Shown here: positions 1 to 8,662 of the stretch, piece after piece
Layout of the letters: every line of letters starts with the position of its first letter
How positions within the stretch are numbered: position 1 is the stretch's first letter
DNA from: an uncultured Haloferula sp.
Lineage (GTDB): Bacteria; Verrucomicrobiota; Verrucomicrobiae; Verrucomicrobiales; Akkermansiaceae
Assembly: GCA_946885645.1 (NCBI GenBank)
Contig: CAMPGU010000177.1
Span: 1-8,662, forward strand
DNA: 8,662 nt
Reading direction: 5' to 3'
Notes under the pieces: generated by a model
The model's input: only the letters and a program-made list of their open reading frames with translations
Databases searched by the model: none
What the model was told of the DNA's origin: nothing
Program-made: the position numbers and the translations under genes

Positions 1-7
1 CGACCAT

Positions 8-1978
8 TCAAATGCGGTCGGCATAGCGGGAAATCGCGAGGGCATCGCTGGCCGCGAGGACGGGCGGGCTATCGATCACCACGGCGTCGAACCACCGGTA
101 GGCATCCTCCAGCAGCACCGGAAAACGGGTGCCGGAAAGGAGTTCCGCCGCATCGTTCCGCATCGGGCCGGAGGACAGGAGATAGAGGTTCGGCAGCGAG
201 GTGGGATAACAGGCGCTGGCGGGGTCCGCCTTCCCCTCCAGATAATCGCCGAGGCCCCCGGAGGTCCCGTTCACGTGCTTCCGGCTGAGGCCGGGGCGGC
301 GCATGTCCGCGTCGAGCAGGAGGGTGCGCTGCCCCTGCACGGCCAAGGAGGCGGCATAGTTGACGGCACAGAGCGAGCGACCTTCACCGGGGCCGGCGCT
401 CACGAAAAGGACGGTACGGGCGTCGGGCTTCGCCGGCGAAGGCGAGAGGACGGCCCGCAGGCGGCGGAAGGCCTCCGCCACCGGCGAGGCCGGATCGGAA
501 AGCAGCACCATGTCCCCCTCCCGGCCGGAAGCCAGGACGGGCAGGCTGGCAAGCAAAGGGGTGCCGGTCGCGCGGGCGGCGGCGGCGGAATCCCGCACGC
601 GTCCATCCGCGAGCTCCAGACCCACCAGCAGGAAGCCTCCCATCAGCGCCCCGGCAAACGCGGCCACGGGCAGGAGCACCTTCTTGTTGGGCTTGGAAGC
701 CTTTTCGGGAACGAAGGGCGGTTCCGCCCACGACACCGAGGAAGCAGCCACGGCGCTCGCGAGCGTGGTTTCCCGCAGGCGCTTGTCCACGGTGGCATGC
801 AGCTCCCGGGCCGCTTCGGCTTCGCGTTTCAGAACGTCGAAACGCGCGCGGATACCCTCCACGCCGACCGCCACGGTGCGAGCCTGGTTTACCTCTCCCT
901 GGAGTTTCGCCTCGTTTTCGAGCGCGACATGGTAGCTCTTTTCCAGTGCTTGTCCGGCGGAGTTCACCGCATCGGCCAGGTTGCCCTTCAGGCTGGCGAC
1001 CTCCTGCTCGGTCTCCTTGTAAACCGGGTGTTTCGGTCCGTAGCGCTCCTTCAGCCGGGCGAATTCCAGCTCCTTGACCTGAAGCGAGCGGATGCTCGAA
1101 AGCACTTCATCGGCGCGCGTGCTGCGGCCGATCCCGGCCAAGGCGTCCGGATCCTCGGGATCGAATTTCTTGAACGCCTCGTACTCCGCCTCCAAACGCA
1201 GGCGCTCCGACTTCGCTTGGGAAAGCTGGGTGTTCAGATTCCCGAGCTGGTTGGCACCGGAGCTGGCGGAATCGCGCTCGTCGAGACCGGGGATCGGATG
1301 TTCCTCGCGGAAAGCCTGCAGGCGGTCGGCCGCGGCATCCATATCGGCGCGCAGTTTCGCCTCCTCCTTCGCGAGCCCCTCGCCCGCCTGCCGTGCGAGG
1401 GTCTCCCGCCGTTCCTTGATCCAAAGGTCGTACTCCGCCACCAGCGACTCGACGAGACGCTTGGCCCGCTGCGGGTCCGTGTCTTCGACATGGAGCACCA
1501 CCACGCGGGTGCCGCGGTCGAGCTCCACCCTCACCCGCCTGGCGAGCAAGCCGAGCAGCCCCTGCTCGGTCGTCCCCGGGGGGGCGAAATCCGGAGCGGC
1601 CGCGAGCCCGTTCGCCCTGACGACACGCAGCAGCAGCGCCGTCGAGCGCATGTTCCGCTCGATCGTGCGGAGCTGCTCCAGATCCTTCTGATCTTCCGGC
1701 GAAAGCCCGTCGATGTTCAGGACCCGCGGAGCATGGCTGCTGACCTCCACCGAACCGGTGGCGACATAAACCTTCGGCACCGTTTTCAAATAAGCCCACA
1801 TGGCGGCGACCGCCACGGCCATGCCGAGCCCGACCATCCAACCGCGGCGGAGGACGATGCCGATCAGGCGGCCGGGCTCCACCTTCGGCAGGTACAGCGT
1901 GGGCGAGACGGTCGCCAGTTCCGCCGTACGCGGGGACGAATTCGTGAGATGATATTCCGGTTTGCGGGGGGCGGCCAT
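8..1978 (-). CDS. Wzz/Wzc-type polysaccharide co-polymerase with degenerate, C-terminally truncated BY-kinase domain
   Basis: Inner-membrane polysaccharide co-polymerase of the Wzc/GumC class, expected to control chain length and export of an exopolysaccharide. TM1 lies about residues 47-64, followed by a Wzz-type start (VYVATGSVEV, 70-79). Long charged helical, probably coiled-coil stretches fill about 185-405. A proline-containing segment (420-430) leads into TM2 at about 434-454. A cytoplasmic CpsD-like ATPase domain follows from about 490: P-loop region SAGPGEGRS (527-535), Walker A' DAD at 556-558, Walker B-like VVIDSPPVL with D636. Two oddities stand out. The invariant P-loop lysine is arginine (R534). 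The frame also ends in TGA at 8-10 after ...SRYADRI, some 80-100 residues before BY-kinases normally end, so the tyrosine-rich tail is missing. It is the last of three same-strand genes, 18 bp after the SLBB gene. The ATG at 1978 gives a sensible short cytoplasmic N-terminus; no Shine-Dalgarno is visible. Family call is firm; whether the gene is functional is open. Confidence 0.9.
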   Translation of the reverse strand: MAAPRKPEYHLTNSSPRTAELATVSPTLYLPKVEPGRLIGIVLRRGWMVGLGMAVAVAAMWAYLKTVPKVYVATGSVEVSSHAPRVLNIDGLSPEDQKDLEQLRTIERNMRSTALLLRVVRANGLAAAPDFAPPGTTEQGLLGLLARRVRVELDRGTRVVVLHVEDTDPQRAKRLVESLVAEYDLWIKERRETLARQAGEGLAKEEAKLRADMDAAADRLQAFREEHPIPGLDERDSASSGANQLGNLNTQLSQAKSERLRLEAEYEAFKKFDPEDPDALAGIGRSTRADEVLSSIRSLQVKELEFARLKERYGPKHPVYKETEQEVASLKGNLADAVNSAGQALEKSYHVALENEAKLQGEVNQARTVAVGVEGIRARFDVLKREAEAARELHATVDKRLRETTLASAVAASSVSWAEPPFVPEKASKPNKKVLLPVAAFAGALMGGFLLVGLELADGRVRDSAAAARATGTPLLASLPVLASGREGDMVLLSDPASPVAEAFRRLRAVLSPSPAKPDARTVLFVSAGPGEGRSLCAVNYAASLAVQGQRTLLLDADMRRPGLSRKHVNGTSGGLGDYLEGKADPASACYPTSLPNLYLLSSGPMRNDAAELLSGTRFPVLLEDAYRWFDAVVIDSPPVLAASDALAISRYADRI

Positions 1979-1996
1979 CGGGACAGGGGGAAAGGA

Positions 1997-2581
1997 TCAG
2001 AACAAGCTTTCGGGAATCGTCAATACGTCGCCGTCACGCAGCGGGATATCGGCCACCTTTCCGGAAGTGATGTCCTTGAGGTTGAGGTGGAGAAGCTGTG
2101 CCTTTCCCCCCTGGCTGCGCTTGAGGGTCATTTTTTTGGTATTCGCAATCCGGGTGGCACCGCCCGCCATGCCGATGGCCTCCACCACGGTGAGCTTGCG
2201 GTCGGCCGGGAGTTCGAAGACCCCGGGATTCTGCGCCTGTCCGAGCACCGTCACCGTCCGCCGGACGCGAGCTTCGATGGAGACGCTCACCTGCGGGTTC
2301 ACCAGATACCCGTCCTTCAGCTTCGCCTTGATCGAGGCGGCGGCCTGATCGGTGGACAACCCGGCGATCTTCACCGGGCCGATCAGGGGCATCGTGATGG
2401 TGCCGTCCGCGGAAAGCTGTCCCGTGGTAGTCAGGTCGTCCTCCCGGAAGACGCGGATCTCCACGGTGTCCATCTTTCCGATGATGCCGGCAGAGCGGCC
2501 TGCGGCAGGCGATTGGCCGTAGGTGATGGCCAGCAGCGCGCCCAGGAGGGTGCACAGGAGGAGGAACAGTTTCACATTCAT
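1997..2581 (-). CDS. Polysaccharide biosynthesis/export protein (Poly_export + SLBB)
   Basis: Small 194-residue member of the Wza-like export family, expected in the periplasm or at the outer membrane, linking the inner-membrane co-polymerase to an outer-membrane exit. An N-terminal hydrophobic segment (residues about 3-20) looks like a type I signal peptide. The only cysteine in it (C10) sits inside the hydrophobic core and has no lipobox, so this is probably not a lipoprotein, unlike E. coli Wza. A Poly_export domain follows (about 35-105, with VEIRVFREDDL and the pattern GTITMPLIGPVKIAGLS). A single SLBB domain covers about 108-194 (VTVLGQAQNPGVFELP, ending RDGDVLTIPESLF). At about half the length of Wza it lacks the extra SLBB repeats and the C-terminal amphipathic helix that forms the Wza outer-membrane pore. 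The beta-barrel protein encoded immediately upstream may therefore supply the pore (inference). It lies 18 bp after that gene and 18 bp before the co-polymerase gene, so cotranscription is likely. Confidence 0.93.
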   Translation of the reverse strand: MNVKLFLLLCTLLGALLAITYGQSPAAGRSAGIIGKMDTVEIRVFREDDLTTTGQLSADGTITMPLIGPVKIAGLSTDQAAASIKAKLKDGYLVNPQVSVSIEARVRRTVTVLGQAQNPGVFELPADRKLTVVEAIGMAGGATRIANTKKMTLKRSQGGKAQLLHLNLKDITSGKVADIPLRDGDVLTIPESLF

Positions 2582-2599
2582 GGCGGGGGCAAGTGTGGT

Positions 2600-3847
2600 T
2601 CAGAAGCGGTAGCCCACCTCGGCACCGGCGGTGTGATTTTCGTAGCCGAAGGCGGCGCGGTTCGAGCGGTTCTCCGAATAGCGGTAGAAGAAGCCCATGC
2701 TGAAATCGTCGGTGAAACGGTATTCCAGCGCGGGGCGGATGAAATGGATCTTATCGACACGGCCGGCGGCTCCGGCGCCCGATACCTGGGTGTAGGAAGC
2801 GCGCTCCAAGCCGCCTTCCAGGCGTGCCACCCACTTTTCGCCGAGGCGTTGGGAGATCCCCAGGGCCGCTCCGCTCTGGGTGTAATTTTGTCCGGGCAGG
2901 AAGGCGGACGCGCGCTCGCGCCGGTAGCCGGTGAGGTAAAGCTCGGTGTTCTCGCGGGGCTTCCAGCCGACCCGGGCCTCCACGACCGGCGTGGTATCCG
3001 AGCCGTTGTCAAAGCTGCGGTGTTCGGCACCCGCTTCCAGATCCACGGCGATTTTTTCGGTGGGGTTCCACTCGATGCGACCGGTCGTCCGGTGCACGGT
3101 CTGTTCCCCGGCACCGTCCACCTCGAAGCGCCCGCCCTTGTAGGCGAGGCCCAGCCGGGTCTTCGGCGAGTAGGCGTAGCGCAGCGCGATTTCCCCGTAG
3201 GTAAGGTCCGAATCGGCGAAAGCCCCGGACTCGTAGTCGGTGGACTCTTGTCCCGCCGCCACTTCCACGGACACCTTTTCGCGCAGGGACCAGGCGATCC
3301 TCGCCTCGTTCGCGAGCTCGCTGCGCTCGGTCAGCGTGCCGGTGTCGGCAGTCGCATCGCCGAGGCGGCCGAAGGCACCGCTGTAGGCGAGGGTGATCGC
3401 CTTGCCGCGCCAGCCGGCTTCCCAGGCGGCCTGATGATCGATGCGGTTGTTGTCGCTGTGATCGGCGTAGGCGATGACGGCGGGCTTGTAGGCGAGCGCG
3501 AGATAGCCGCCTTCACCGGTGGCCTTGTCGCCCTTCCGGTAAGCCACCGAAGGAGCGACCTTCACGACGAAGTCCGCTTTGGGGGCGGTGGCGCTGAGAA
3601 AGATATTGTCGTCGTACGCGGCCGAGATCGCGATGCCCATCTCCAGCTCTTCCTGCCGCGTCTGGCCGACTCCGGGATCACGCCGGACCGCGCTGCGGGG
3701 AAGAATACGGCCGTCCACTTCCCCTTCCAAGCGGCCGGGAGCCGTGGATAGGAGTTCTTCTCCCCATGACGGTACCAAAGAGCCCGCCAGAACGGCGGAA
3801 AGCATCAGAGGGACCACCCGGGGGGCGCGTGGCACTCGGTGGGACAT
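2600..3847 (-). CDS. Outer-membrane beta-barrel protein of an EPS export operon (BBP2-like)
   Basis: 415-residue predicted outer-membrane beta-barrel. An Arg-rich N-terminus and hydrophobic core (residues about 12-27) form a signal peptide, probably cleaved near VPSWG/EE. The motif AYDDNIFLS (77-85) at the start of the barrel is typical of the BBP2-type beta-barrel proteins found in exopolysaccharide clusters. The rest alternates short amphipathic strands rich in Tyr, Trp, Arg and Gly with polar turns, contains no cysteine, and ends in ...GAEVGYRF, the aromatic C-terminal residue expected of a Bam-inserted barrel. First gene of the three-gene minus-strand operon, directly followed by the SLBB export gene. 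A role as the outer-membrane exit or a scaffold for the polymer is an inference from context. The ATG at 3847 is chosen because it gives a basic n-region before the hydrophobic core; the internal Met15 would cut into the signal peptide. No Shine-Dalgarno is seen. Confidence 0.85.
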   Translation of the reverse strand: MSHRVPRAPRVVPLMLSAVLAGSLVPSWGEELLSTAPGRLEGEVDGRILPRSAVRRDPGVGQTRQEELEMGIAISAAYDDNIFLSATAPKADFVVKVAPSVAYRKGDKATGEGGYLALAYKPAVIAYADHSDNNRIDHQAAWEAGWRGKAITLAYSGAFGRLGDATADTGTLTERSELANEARIAWSLREKVSVEVAAGQESTDYESGAFADSDLTYGEIALRYAYSPKTRLGLAYKGGRFEVDGAGEQTVHRTTGRIEWNPTEKIAVDLEAGAEHRSFDNGSDTTPVVEARVGWKPRENTELYLTGYRRERASAFLPGQNYTQSGAALGISQRLGEKWVARLEGGLERASYTQVSGAGAAGRVDKIHFIRPALEYRFTDDFSMGFFYRYSENRSNRAAFGYENHTAGAEVGYRF

Positions 3848-4110: not shown

Positions 4111-5945
<1,835 letters not shown>

Positions 5946-5949
<4 letters not shown>

Positions 5950-8662
5950 ACGAAGAACTTCCCCCGCCCGAAGCCGTTGCCGTGATCGGCATGGCAGGCC
6001 GCTTTCCCGGCGCCGCGAATCCCGACGAGTTCTGGCAGAACCTCATCGAGGGAAAGGATTGCATCACCCGCTTTGAAAGCCGCACGGGCGAGGACGGCCG
6101 GGAATATGTCGGGGCCCGCAGCATGATCGAGCGGCCGGATCTTTTCGACGCCTCCTTCTTCGGAATCTACCCGAAGGAAGCGGAACTGATGGATCCGCAG
6201 CACCGCATATTCCTGGAGTGCGCGTGGGAAGCCATCGAGCACGCCGGCTACGACCCGGGCGCATACCCCGGCATGATCGGCGTCTATGCCGGGCTGGGCT
6301 TGAACACCTACCTGCTCCACAACCTCGGCAAGGCGAAGGAGCTGGCGAGGAATTATCAAGTGGGCGAGTACCAGACCATGCTCGGCAACGACAAGGACTT
6401 CCTGCCGGTCCGCGTCTCCTACAAGCTGAACCTGCGTGGCCCGAGCATGACCATCCAGACGGCGTGCTCCACCTCGCTGGTGGCAATTTGCCAGGCCGCC
6501 ACCTCGCTGCTGACCTACCAGTGCGACATGGCGCTGGCCGGCGGCGTTTCCCTTAGCTTCCCCCAGCAGCGGCACTACCTCTACACCGAGGAAGGCATGG
6601 TCTCCGGCGATGGCACCGTGCGGGCCTTCGACGAAAATGCGGCGGGCACGGTCTTCGGCCACGGCTGCGGCGTGGTGCTGCTGAAGCGCCTGAGCGAAGC
6701 GATTTCCGACCGCGATCCGATCCTGGCGGTCATCAAAGGCTGGGCGGTCAACAACGACGGCTCCGACAAGATCGGCTTCGCCGCCCCCGGCCTGAATGCC
6801 CAAGCGGACGTGGTCGCGCTGGCGCAGGCCTCCGCAGGCGTACATCCCTCGGAAGTCTCTTACATCGAAGCGCACGGCACCGGCACGCCGCTAGGCGATC
6901 CGATCGAGGTCGCGGCTCTCACGAAGGCCTTCCGCGAGGGCGGTGCGGCCGGAAACGGCTACTGCACGCTCGGCACCGGCAAGACCCACATCGGCCACCT
7001 CGACGTGGCCGCGGGCGTCACCGGCCTGATCAAGACGATCCAGCAATTCCGCCACGGCAAGATCCCGGCACTGCTGCATTTCCAAGCGCCCAACCCGCGC
7101 ATCGACTTCGCCAACAGCCCCTTCGCACCGGCCTCGGAAACCACCGCGTGGAGCAGGAACGGGGCACCGAGGATCGCGGGCGTGAGCGCCTTCGGCGTGG
7201 GCGGCACGAATGCCCACGTGGTGATGGAAGAAGCGCCCGCGAGCGCTCCGGCGGCACCGGGCCGGAAGCAGCAACTGCTGGTGCTGTCTGCGAAGACGGC
7301 GTCCGCGCTGGATGCGATGGCGGAGAATCTGGCGAGACATATGGAGCAGGGACATTCCTGTCCCTGTTCTTCCAGCGACAAGAATGTCGCTGCTCCTTAT
7401 CTCCCTGATGTCGCGTTCACCCTGGCCACCGGCCGGCGCGCCTTCCCTTTCCGCCGCCATGTCGTGGCCACAAGCACGGAAGAAGCCGTCGCCAAGCTCC
7501 GCGAAGCCGCGAAGAGCAGCGCGGCGGGAAAGAGCGCGAAGATCGCCTTCCTCTTCCCCGGCCAAGGGTCGCAGTACTTGGACATGGGCCGGGAACTCTA
7601 CGACGCCGAACCGGTCTTCCGCAGCGCTGTCGATGACTGCGCCGCGCACCTGCAGCGCCACCTCGGCGTCGATGTCCGCGCGACGCTCCATCCTACCGGG
7701 GAAGACCGAAGCGCCGCGGAAGAACGGATCCATCAGACCTGGCTCACCCAGCCTTGCATCTTCGTGGTGGAGTATGCCCTGGCGAAGCTCTGGATGTCAT
7801 GGGGCGTGCGGCCTTCCCTCCTCATCGGCCACAGCATCGGCGAATACGTCGCCGCGGTTCTTGCCGGGACCTTCAGCCTCGCGGATGCGCTCGGCTTGCT
7901 CGCCACGCGCGCCCGCCTGATGCAGGAGCTCCCCTCCGGAGCGATGCTCGCCGTGAGGCAGGGTGCCGAGGAGTTGACGCTGCCGCCGGGCATCGACCTC
8001 GCCGCGATCAATAGCCCTAAGCTCTGCACGGTATCCGGCAGCCATGAGGCGATTGCTGCTTTCCAGCTCGACCTCGAGGCGCGGAAGATCGCGTGCCGCC
8101 CGCTGCAGACCTCGCACGCTTTCCATTCCGCGATGATGGAGCCGCTTGTAGCACCTTTCACGGCGGAAGCGGCGAAGGTCCGGGCAAACGCCCCGCAGAT
8201 CCCGTGGATCTCGACTTGCACCGGCAAAGCAATGGACGCCGCGACGCTGGCGGATCCGGGCTATTGGGCGCGGCAACTGCGCCATGAGGTGCGCTTCACC
8301 GACGCCCTTGCATCCGCCTTTTCCGAAGAGGACGTGATCCTGCTCGAGGTCGGCCCCGGGCAAGCGCTGGCCCCCTTCGCGCGCCAGCACCCGGGCCGAG
8401 GCTCTGCCACGGTGCTTTCCACCCTGCCATCCGCCTCCGGCGACCTCGCGGATCTGCTCCAGGCAGCGGGCGAGCTCTGGAAACGGGGTGTCGCCCTCGA
8501 TTGGCCCGCATTCTTCGCCGGCCAGGATCGCTCCCGCGTCCATCTTCCCACCTATCCCTTCGAGCGCCAGAGCTACTGGATCGATGCCTCCGGGGAAGAT
8601 CCCGCGGCGACTCCTGCGCCCCGCTCCGCCGCGCCGCTACCGCTCACCCCTGCCCTCACCCC
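5946..8662 (+). CDS. Type I polyketide synthase, KS-AT module (3' end outside window)
   Basis: Open from the ATG at 5946 to the window edge: 905 complete codons and no stop, so partial at the C-terminus. A ketosynthase spans about residues 9-430: [11 protein letters not shown] start, active-site C174 in QTACSTSL, H310 in EAHGTGT, and K346/H351 in KTHIGH (family norm KTNIGH), so the Cys-His-His triad is intact. A KS-AT linker follows (about 431-535) that contains a REP-like 54-bp insert. The acyltransferase (about 536-830) shows GQGSQ (539-543), S630 in GHSIGE, R655 as the likely carboxylate-binding arginine, and HAFH (724-727), the signature of malonyl-CoA rather than methylmalonyl-CoA ATs. 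The post-AT motif [12 protein letters not shown] (867-878) is present. A Pro/Ala-rich linker then runs off the end; reductive and carrier domains cannot be seen. Together with the upstream loading protein it should elongate an aminoacyl starter with malonyl-CoA. Confidence 0.95.
7343..7396. repeat. BIME-like pair of inverted REP-type hairpins inside the PKS coding sequence
   Basis: The 54-bp element is GGAG (7343-7346), hairpin 1 CAGGGACATTCCTGTCCCTG (7347-7366, 8-bp perfect stem, 4-nt loop), linker TTCTTC (7367-7372), hairpin 2 CAGCGACAAGAATGTCGCTG (7373-7392, 8-bp perfect stem, 4-nt loop), CTCC (7393-7396). Read on opposite strands, the two units are copies of one another: GGAG, stem, loop TTCC or TTCT. 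They differ in the stem by a matched pair (GGG/CCC versus GCG/CGC) that keeps the pairing. A GTAG or GGAG tetranucleotide before a hairpin is the hallmark of REP sequences mobilised by RAYT (TnpA-REP) transposases, and two inverted REPs make a BIME. It is translated as about 18 codons (467-484) in the KS-AT linker. No RAYT gene is in the window. Confidence 0.8.

Follow-up and report, generated by a model that had tools for sequence, protein, structure and literature searches.

A 54-bp element inside a type I polyketide synthase (PKS) gene of an uncultured Haloferula sp. appears to be a mobile hairpin repeat that now encodes part of the protein. In Verrucomicrobiota, units of the class that makes up this element are multi-copy in related genomes and flank the genes of a clade of REP-associated tyrosine transposases (RAYTs), and the PKS segment is in frame and missing from most close orthologues. 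The explanation we favor as a whole, at a probability of roughly 0.9, is that the element is a non-autonomous REP-type dimer of a TAAGG[AG]G class that was placed by a RAYT in the KS-AT linker of the PKS, where it is tolerated as a disordered loop at a site that has been reused. The analysis started from a window of 8,662 nucleotides, by which we mean the whole stretch of DNA examined; the coordinates of its features are collected in Table 1.

Table 1. Coordinates of the repeat element, its parts and its host genes in the window.
Feature	Position	Strand	Remark
Left REP unit, GGAG plus 8-bp hairpin CAGGGACA-TTCC-TGTCCCTG	7343..7366	+	Identical 24-mer in contigs of Roseibacillus, Haloferula and Opitutales
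Spacer TTCTTC between the inverted units	7367..7372	.	
Right REP unit, inverted, GGAG plus CAGCGACA-TTCT-TGTCGCTG	7373..7396	-	
TTA, the TAA preceding GGAG of the right unit	7397..7399	-	Extended tag TAAGGAG (window reads CTCCTTA)
TAT preceding GGAG of the left unit (TATGGAG, 7340-7346)	7340..7342	+	Departs from TAA; TAT also in the PKS copies of G310 and Haloferula
Codons 467-484, the translated element	7344..7397	+	Residues 470-483 predicted disordered
Insert-bearing type I PKS gene, continuing past the window end (KS, KS-AT linker, AT)	5946..8660	+	Pfam and fold match
NRPS-like gene (AMP-binding and carrier domain), 4-base overlap with the PKS start	4111..5949	+	Pfam

The element fills positions 7343-7396 (54 bases). 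Each of its two 24-base units carries a GGAG tag directly 5' of an 8-bp stem with a 4-nt loop; the units are inverted with their tags outward, and a compensated change separates their stems (GGGACA/TGTCCC versus GCGACA/TGTCGC). With up to three mismatches allowed, the hairpin pattern matches four times in the window (two hairpins on both strands) against 0.20 expected, a number that none of 200 shuffles reached. Folded as DNA, the strand has an energy of -19.4 kcal/mol versus -6.4 ± 2.1 kcal/mol for shuffled sequence (z -6.2; 0 of 200 as good). The sequence, the shuffles and the fold thus confirm the pair of inverted GGAG hairpins described in a first-pass annotation of this DNA. The repeat reaches three bases past the 54 bp on the side of the right unit, where the family tag reads TAAGGAG. 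It has the general build of REP-type repeats, in which the tag immediately precedes a short-looped stem of 6-13 bp, and the inverted-dimer arrangement of BIMEs and REPINs (HH), which also occurs in L121, L130, L132 and L304.

We regard a chance palindrome or an assembly artefact in a variable linker as having a negligible probability. Linker length does vary among distant PKSs (16-26 residues in homologues below 66% identity), but this reading must contend with the shuffles, with the identical 24-mer in other genera, and with the G310 and Haloferula assemblies, where elements of this type occupy the identical nucleotide. In viral contigs, a loose, untagged hairpin pattern matched at least 120 stretches, and among the matches listed five have GGAG at most 8 bases upstream and were treated as chance. 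In one of these five (L102), GGAG lies directly before the hairpin, but the stem is mismatched and the following 60 bases contain no further unit. A stricter, tagged pattern gave no match in viral contigs.

The window PKS is 80-84% identical to those of Haloferula and its kin and contains the Pfam domains ketoacyl-synt (residues 9-252), Ketoacyl-synt_C (260-379), CurL-like_PKS_C (443-518) and Acyl_transf_1 (535-807). Upstream, at 8-3847 on the minus strand, polysaccharide-export genes (Wzz/AAA-like, Poly_export-SLBB and beta-barrel porin) adjoin the plus-strand NRPS/PKS genes. The element is in frame with the PKS open reading frame: its first base is the third of codon 466, and it ends on the second base of codon 484. 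The first-pass annotation had also stressed that its length is divisible by three and that it is free of stops in the PKS frame; the repeat is indeed in frame, but the 54-mer lacks stops in all six frames, so an open PKS frame says little. The CPC motif, earlier thought unusual for a linker, is simply the reading of TGTCCCTG and leaves no motif to explain.

A structure model of the PKS built from 36 sequences (mean pLDDT 88.5, with 658 of 905 residues at 90 or above) matches the KS-AT didomains of ClbI (8xjy) and CurL (4mz0), which thus resemble the host protein in fold; in a phmmer alignment, ClbI has a 9-residue gap opposite the insert of the window PKS. In the model, residues 470-483 inside the insert have pLDDT below 50 and lie between helices 452-471 and 486-496. 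Because residues 1-5, 136-149 and 884-905 also fall below 50, the insert is not alone in having low pLDDT. The prediction fits a translated segment that forms a loop without structure of its own.

We found PKS homologues in 37 of 387 genomes of a phylum sample, 21 of 386 of an order sample and 20 of 260 of a family set, with E-value limits applied. Counted from LA to TL, the linker is 32 residues long in the window and 17-20 in 18 of the 20 homologues with at least 66% identity, the exceptions being G310 (23 residues) and G003, which is Haloferula sp. BvORR071 (54 residues). The open reading frame and these linker lengths support the earlier placement of the element, in frame, in a tolerant KS-AT linker, and aligning the homologous linkers, as had been proposed, shows the added residues to be absent from 18 of 20 close homologues. 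The number of residues added had been put at 18, which does not hold: with 32 residues here versus 17-20 in those homologues, the net gain is 12-15. An 18-codon element that yields this gain must have replaced residues as well as added them, so a clean insertion fails to explain the junction. The bases after GGAG in the element number 50, which is not divisible by three.

The two exceptional linkers contain repeats of other types. That of G310 holds a C-type single unit, GGAG-GAGGGACA-CTCC-TGTCCCTC, a form that recurs three times in G257 and is present in G310 only at the PKS. The Haloferula G003 linker holds a 118-bp B-type dimer of a different family (GGAGTGCGGTG..). Units of the GGAGTGCGGTG type are abundant in this genome (34 exact matches; e.g. 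L240-L254), and among the 12 dimers of this type measured there, 10 span 177-181 bp, one 235 bp and the PKS copy 118 bp. The window, G310 and Haloferula elements begin at the identical nucleotide, with GGAG following CATAT; the start CATATGGAG is the same in all three, and the peptides they encode differ. With this nucleotide occupied by a C-type single unit in G310 but by a B-type dimer in Haloferula, the linker site is used repeatedly.

Further inserts were seen in this gene family. The longer linker of G330, a distant homologue (61% identity; L195), has a GGAG..CTCC palindrome, GGAGCGGCAA..TTGCCGGGACTCC, at this same CTGGAG codon; with one match in its genome, it was not counted as a REP. 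In-frame, low-complexity inserts occur after the AT domain in the G310 PKS (LDVESL and QSPIVNRQ; L291) and late in the protein in the G703 PKS (LSLRLSTFDVQ; L297). When 81 units (41 of type A, 36 of type B and 4 of type C) were surveyed for in-gene positions, five had a frame open for at least 100 codons on both sides. Three of these are PKS copies (one in G310, two in Haloferula); the open reading frames around the other two, in L237 and L240, were judged doubtful.

When the linker is left out of the PKS trees, G310 groups with the empty G491 (91/83) and G003 with the empty G182 (99/96), and the window sits near those pairs and the empty G254, where the branching order lacks resolution. The three carriers need at least three changes on the tree, and a single clade of carriers is rejected (p-AU 2.5e-54), the tested group having been set by the insert after an earlier tree had been seen. 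A single ancestral insertion, later overwritten by each genome's REP families and lost in at least four lineages, with CATATGGAG inherited, is a possible account that we rate as less probable but worth serious weight. It would explain why CATATGGAG is identical in the three carriers when TAAGGAG is the form in 12 of 13 A/C-type copies, and it has a parallel in the urea carboxylase described below, with its near-constant loop, half-decayed units, and differing L330 and L332. Its cost, read off the trees, is one gain, at least four losses and two replacements versus three gains, and no element remnant was seen in the linkers of empty PKS orthologues. Either three separate insertions, which would require the fewest changes in the PKS, or one old insertion with turnover, which the shared CATATGGAG and the urea carboxylase parallel would fit, may account for the copies.

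In another idea, GGAG itself would be a pre-existing target, in the manner of IS608. Some empty homologues (L258, L198 and L202) do have CTGGAG here, but the closest four empty sites have CTCGAA, CTGAAT, TTGGAA and CTGGAA (L189, L188, L255 and L256, respectively), and studied RAYTs are thought, according to excerpts of PMC8266576, to use the tag as a guide, cleaving at CT or CA. On this guide model, cuts would be predicted at CT for GGAG and at CC for GGGG.

A second enzyme holds units at a fixed position. Among 28 further units, the clear in-gene case is the urea carboxylase of G597 (L319, minus strand 1-3021), in which a unit lies in frame in the loop after VLGI; open reading frames also span units in L304, L325 and L326. 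A family-wide search found urea carboxylase orthologues in 38 of 260 genomes, and the best 30 loci (L328-L357) were read with a fixed unit rule (GG[AG]G, a perfect stem of at least 7 and a loop of 3-5). The same loop carries units in nine of these best 30 loci, and the rule gives 16 matches, which represent 15 units because one is counted twice, in the 2,928 bp of loop sequence versus none in 86,286 bp of gene remainder. Applied to the PKS sets, it finds one unit in 60,882 bp and one in 54,711 bp of gene remainder, and in the linker one unit of G310 and the two of the window; the Haloferula type escapes the rule.

In all nine urea carboxylase carriers the tag starts at loop base 10. The carriers differ in stem type, with TGGGGACA, CGGGGACG, GTCGACC, GTCGACG and CGGCGACA among those present; unit presence needs at least six changes on the tree, and the sister sequences L330 and L332 differ in both stem type and loop type. 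The loop measures 30-34 residues in 27 of 30 orthologues, with or without units, and half-units were recognized by eye in the loops of L337, L339 and L348. The near-constant length tells against simple insertion: either units replaced loop sequence rather than lengthening it, or the loop is an old REP that has decayed in some lineages, as the half-units also indicate. This suggests an old occupancy with turnover. AATC-type repeats lie in the urea carboxylase loops of L343, L345, L347, L354 and L357. With these AATC-type repeats and the low-complexity PKS inserts, a different kind of genomic repeat seems to use the same loops. We put forward, tentatively and at slightly less than even odds, the more general proposal that a few protein loops in Verrucomicrobiota, the PKS KS-AT linker and the urea carboxylase loop among them, may be long-lived REP slots. 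TAAGG[AG]G dimers with their own RAYT clade would occupy an identical nucleotide of such a gene across many species, with the family being exchanged and the peptide following the genome's current REPs.

A scan of GTDB genome contigs for the strict unit gave 16 stretches, all in Verrucomicrobiota records: nine in Roseibacillus persicicus, four in Haloferula sp. BvORR071 and three in Opitutales MAGs. A slightly wider pattern matched 27 (G002), 5, 5 and 1 times in those four genomes, with no match of the reversed control in any of them, and a further widened pattern was present in 38 of the 386 genomes examined from the order that includes Haloferula G003, compared with 2 of 386 (G409 and G457) for the reversed pattern. 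Among the matches listed, the free stem position pairs in 130 of 132 places (99 G-C and 31 C-G), so compensated changes have kept the hairpin. With the inner stem alone fixed (TAAGGRG..GAC..GTC), we counted 369 places in 14 genomes, 13 of which matched, and 4 for the reversed control; single genomes range widely (108 in G491, 89 in G310 and 0 in G254).

TAA precedes GGAG in 12 of the 13 A/C-type copies, the exception being the G310 PKS copy, and in 18 of 28 in the further unit set; it is found in 8 of 9 non-Roseibacillus rows versus 0 of 17 Roseibacillus rows. We take the extended tag TAAGGAG to be a strong Shine-Dalgarno sequence. At 1501-1526 of L322 (G537), a biotin carboxylase gene takes its stop codon from the TAA of the tag, and the unit lies just past the end of the open reading frame; in this it is like GTAG REPs, which are reported to supply stop codons.

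The units also lie next to candidate transposase genes. In Roseibacillus and an Opitutales MAG, they occur on both sides of a Y1_Tnp gene, and the G002 and G004 genes in question pass the Pfam cut-off for Y1_Tnp. Searching ten genomes with the Roseibacillus protein returned relatives in all ten. We scanned 20 RAYT loci for tagged hairpins, at positions 1000-2700 only, and assigned flank labels by hand: eight loci were labeled GG[AG]G (L287 on one side only), four GTAG (L285 on one side only) and eight neither, this last set including single GGAG hairpins judged weak (L279 and L289) and GCAG hairpins (L277). Five loci, L270-L274 (Roseibacillus, the Opitutales MAG, G257, G219 and G310), form one group (SH-aLRT 99) with units flanking both sides, the flanking tag in G310 being GGGG; L275, L282 and L287, also labeled GG[AG]G, fall outside it.

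MPNHVH (HUH) and the YI..NP tyrosine, presumably the catalytic Tyr, are kept in all 20 aligned RAYT rows. The best NCBIfam model, REP_Tyr_transpos, scored 52.2, 59, 66.7 and 56.8 bits for the four proteins tested (L273 not among them), and all four missed its cut-off of 80. By sequence, L270-L274 is a divergent RAYT group. In L146 of Roseibacillus, at 1486-2193, the RAYT frame ends inside a REP unit (..SLEQGHSCL), so that the repeat supplies C-terminal codons. The search for more copies and for a RAYT that had been suggested for the genome, run here in relatives, thus found both, with the RAYT genes adjacent, and multi-copy units next to RAYTs support the assignment to a REP/BIME-type dimer. 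A palindrome of another transposon type, either a MITE or the terminal inverted repeat of another transposase, is very improbable in our judgment: the tag is non-canonical and excerpts of PMC3733652 include TIR-flanked RAYT relatives, but the units here are 24-nt tag-hairpins, single or in dimers, that directly flank RAYT genes.

We infer that a RAYT, as an HUH enzyme acting on single strands, moved or copied the dimer into a short PKS loop, the probable target lying between the last KS-associated helix (..LARHME) and the next helix (LPDVAFTL). As to mobility, what is observed is the presence or absence of the element between species. A frame-keeping insertion in the KS-AT loop would do little harm, consistent with neutral tolerance, and the translated element would now form a disordered loop that has no specific function and is tolerated without having been domesticated. 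The first-pass annotation had called it domesticated, but none of the results indicates a protein function for the segment, which is predicted to be disordered. Domestication, in which the loop or an mRNA hairpin would be selected, for example to slow translation between KS and AT, is unlikely. Intact hairpins, the compensated difference between the units and the retained frame are what it would lead one to expect, but intact hairpins are equally expected after a recent insertion, 18 of 20 close homologues are without the segment, and the peptides of the carriers differ.

Taken as RAYT-placed, tolerated repeats, these mobile hairpins would write segments of protein at set positions in two unrelated enzymes of different species. 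They also point to a class of REPs that has a tag other than GTAG and a transposase clade of its own. Two questions become testable: by what means RAYTs select their targets, and whether the genomic pool renews the REPs that lie inside genes.

The window element shares with GTAG REPs, BIMEs and REPINs, as excerpts of PMC3733652, PMC2817692 and PMC6006769 present them, a tag with a short hairpin, HH dimers, a multi-copy state and a link to Y1/HUH proteins. The excerpted text of PMC3733652 describes GTAG and CGTC REPs, HH dimers and links to RAYTs. The described REPs have the tag GTAG with GTGG and GYRG variants, whereas the class found here has (TAA)GG[AG]G; because both window units carry GGAG and the relatives GG[AG]G, we do not file the element in the GTAG superfamily (GTAG, GTRG, GYAG, GYRG, GTMG and GTGG). 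The four RAYTs tested here likewise differ from GTAG-type RAYTs in scoring under the NCBIfam RAYT cut-off. For the TnpA-REP systems of E. coli, Stenotrophomonas and Marinomonas, excerpts of PMC8266576 report that the tag acts in cleavage and that the HUH transposase cuts single-stranded REPs; those REPtrons are GTAG-type, while the window tag is GGAG. GGAG as the start of a word is absent from the main texts of PMC3733652, PMC6006769 and PMC8266576. In the literature searched, which left preprints and supplements outside its scope, we found neither a paper containing both RAYT and GGAG as whole words nor a description of a GG[AG]G REP class.

Repeats inside genes have precedents. According to excerpts of PMC3733652, in-gene REPs are known, most of them in Opitutus terrae, also of the Verrucomicrobia, and more than half of the in-gene inserts are dimers or groups that encode 20-30 residues; the words polyketide and urea are absent from its main text. 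Different REPs occupy about the same recB site in X. campestris and X. oryzae, and this Xanthomonas recB case is the only one in the excerpted text similar to what we see here, where the same in-gene nucleotide is occupied by different families across species. Rickettsia palindromic elements, as covered in excerpts of the review PMC10969869, resemble the window element in being palindromes in frame inside protein genes, which are unrelated to one another. Those elements are about 150 bp long, whereas the repeats described here are tag-hairpin units of 54-60 bp found only in Verrucomicrobiota among the genome contigs scanned, and the word RAYT is absent from the text of that review; the window element is therefore not one of them. 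Given the in-gene and in-frame cases in Opitutus and Rickettsia, REP insertion into a gene is an event of a known kind; the new part is the tag class with its RAYT clade, together with in-gene slots used repeatedly at the same nucleotide.
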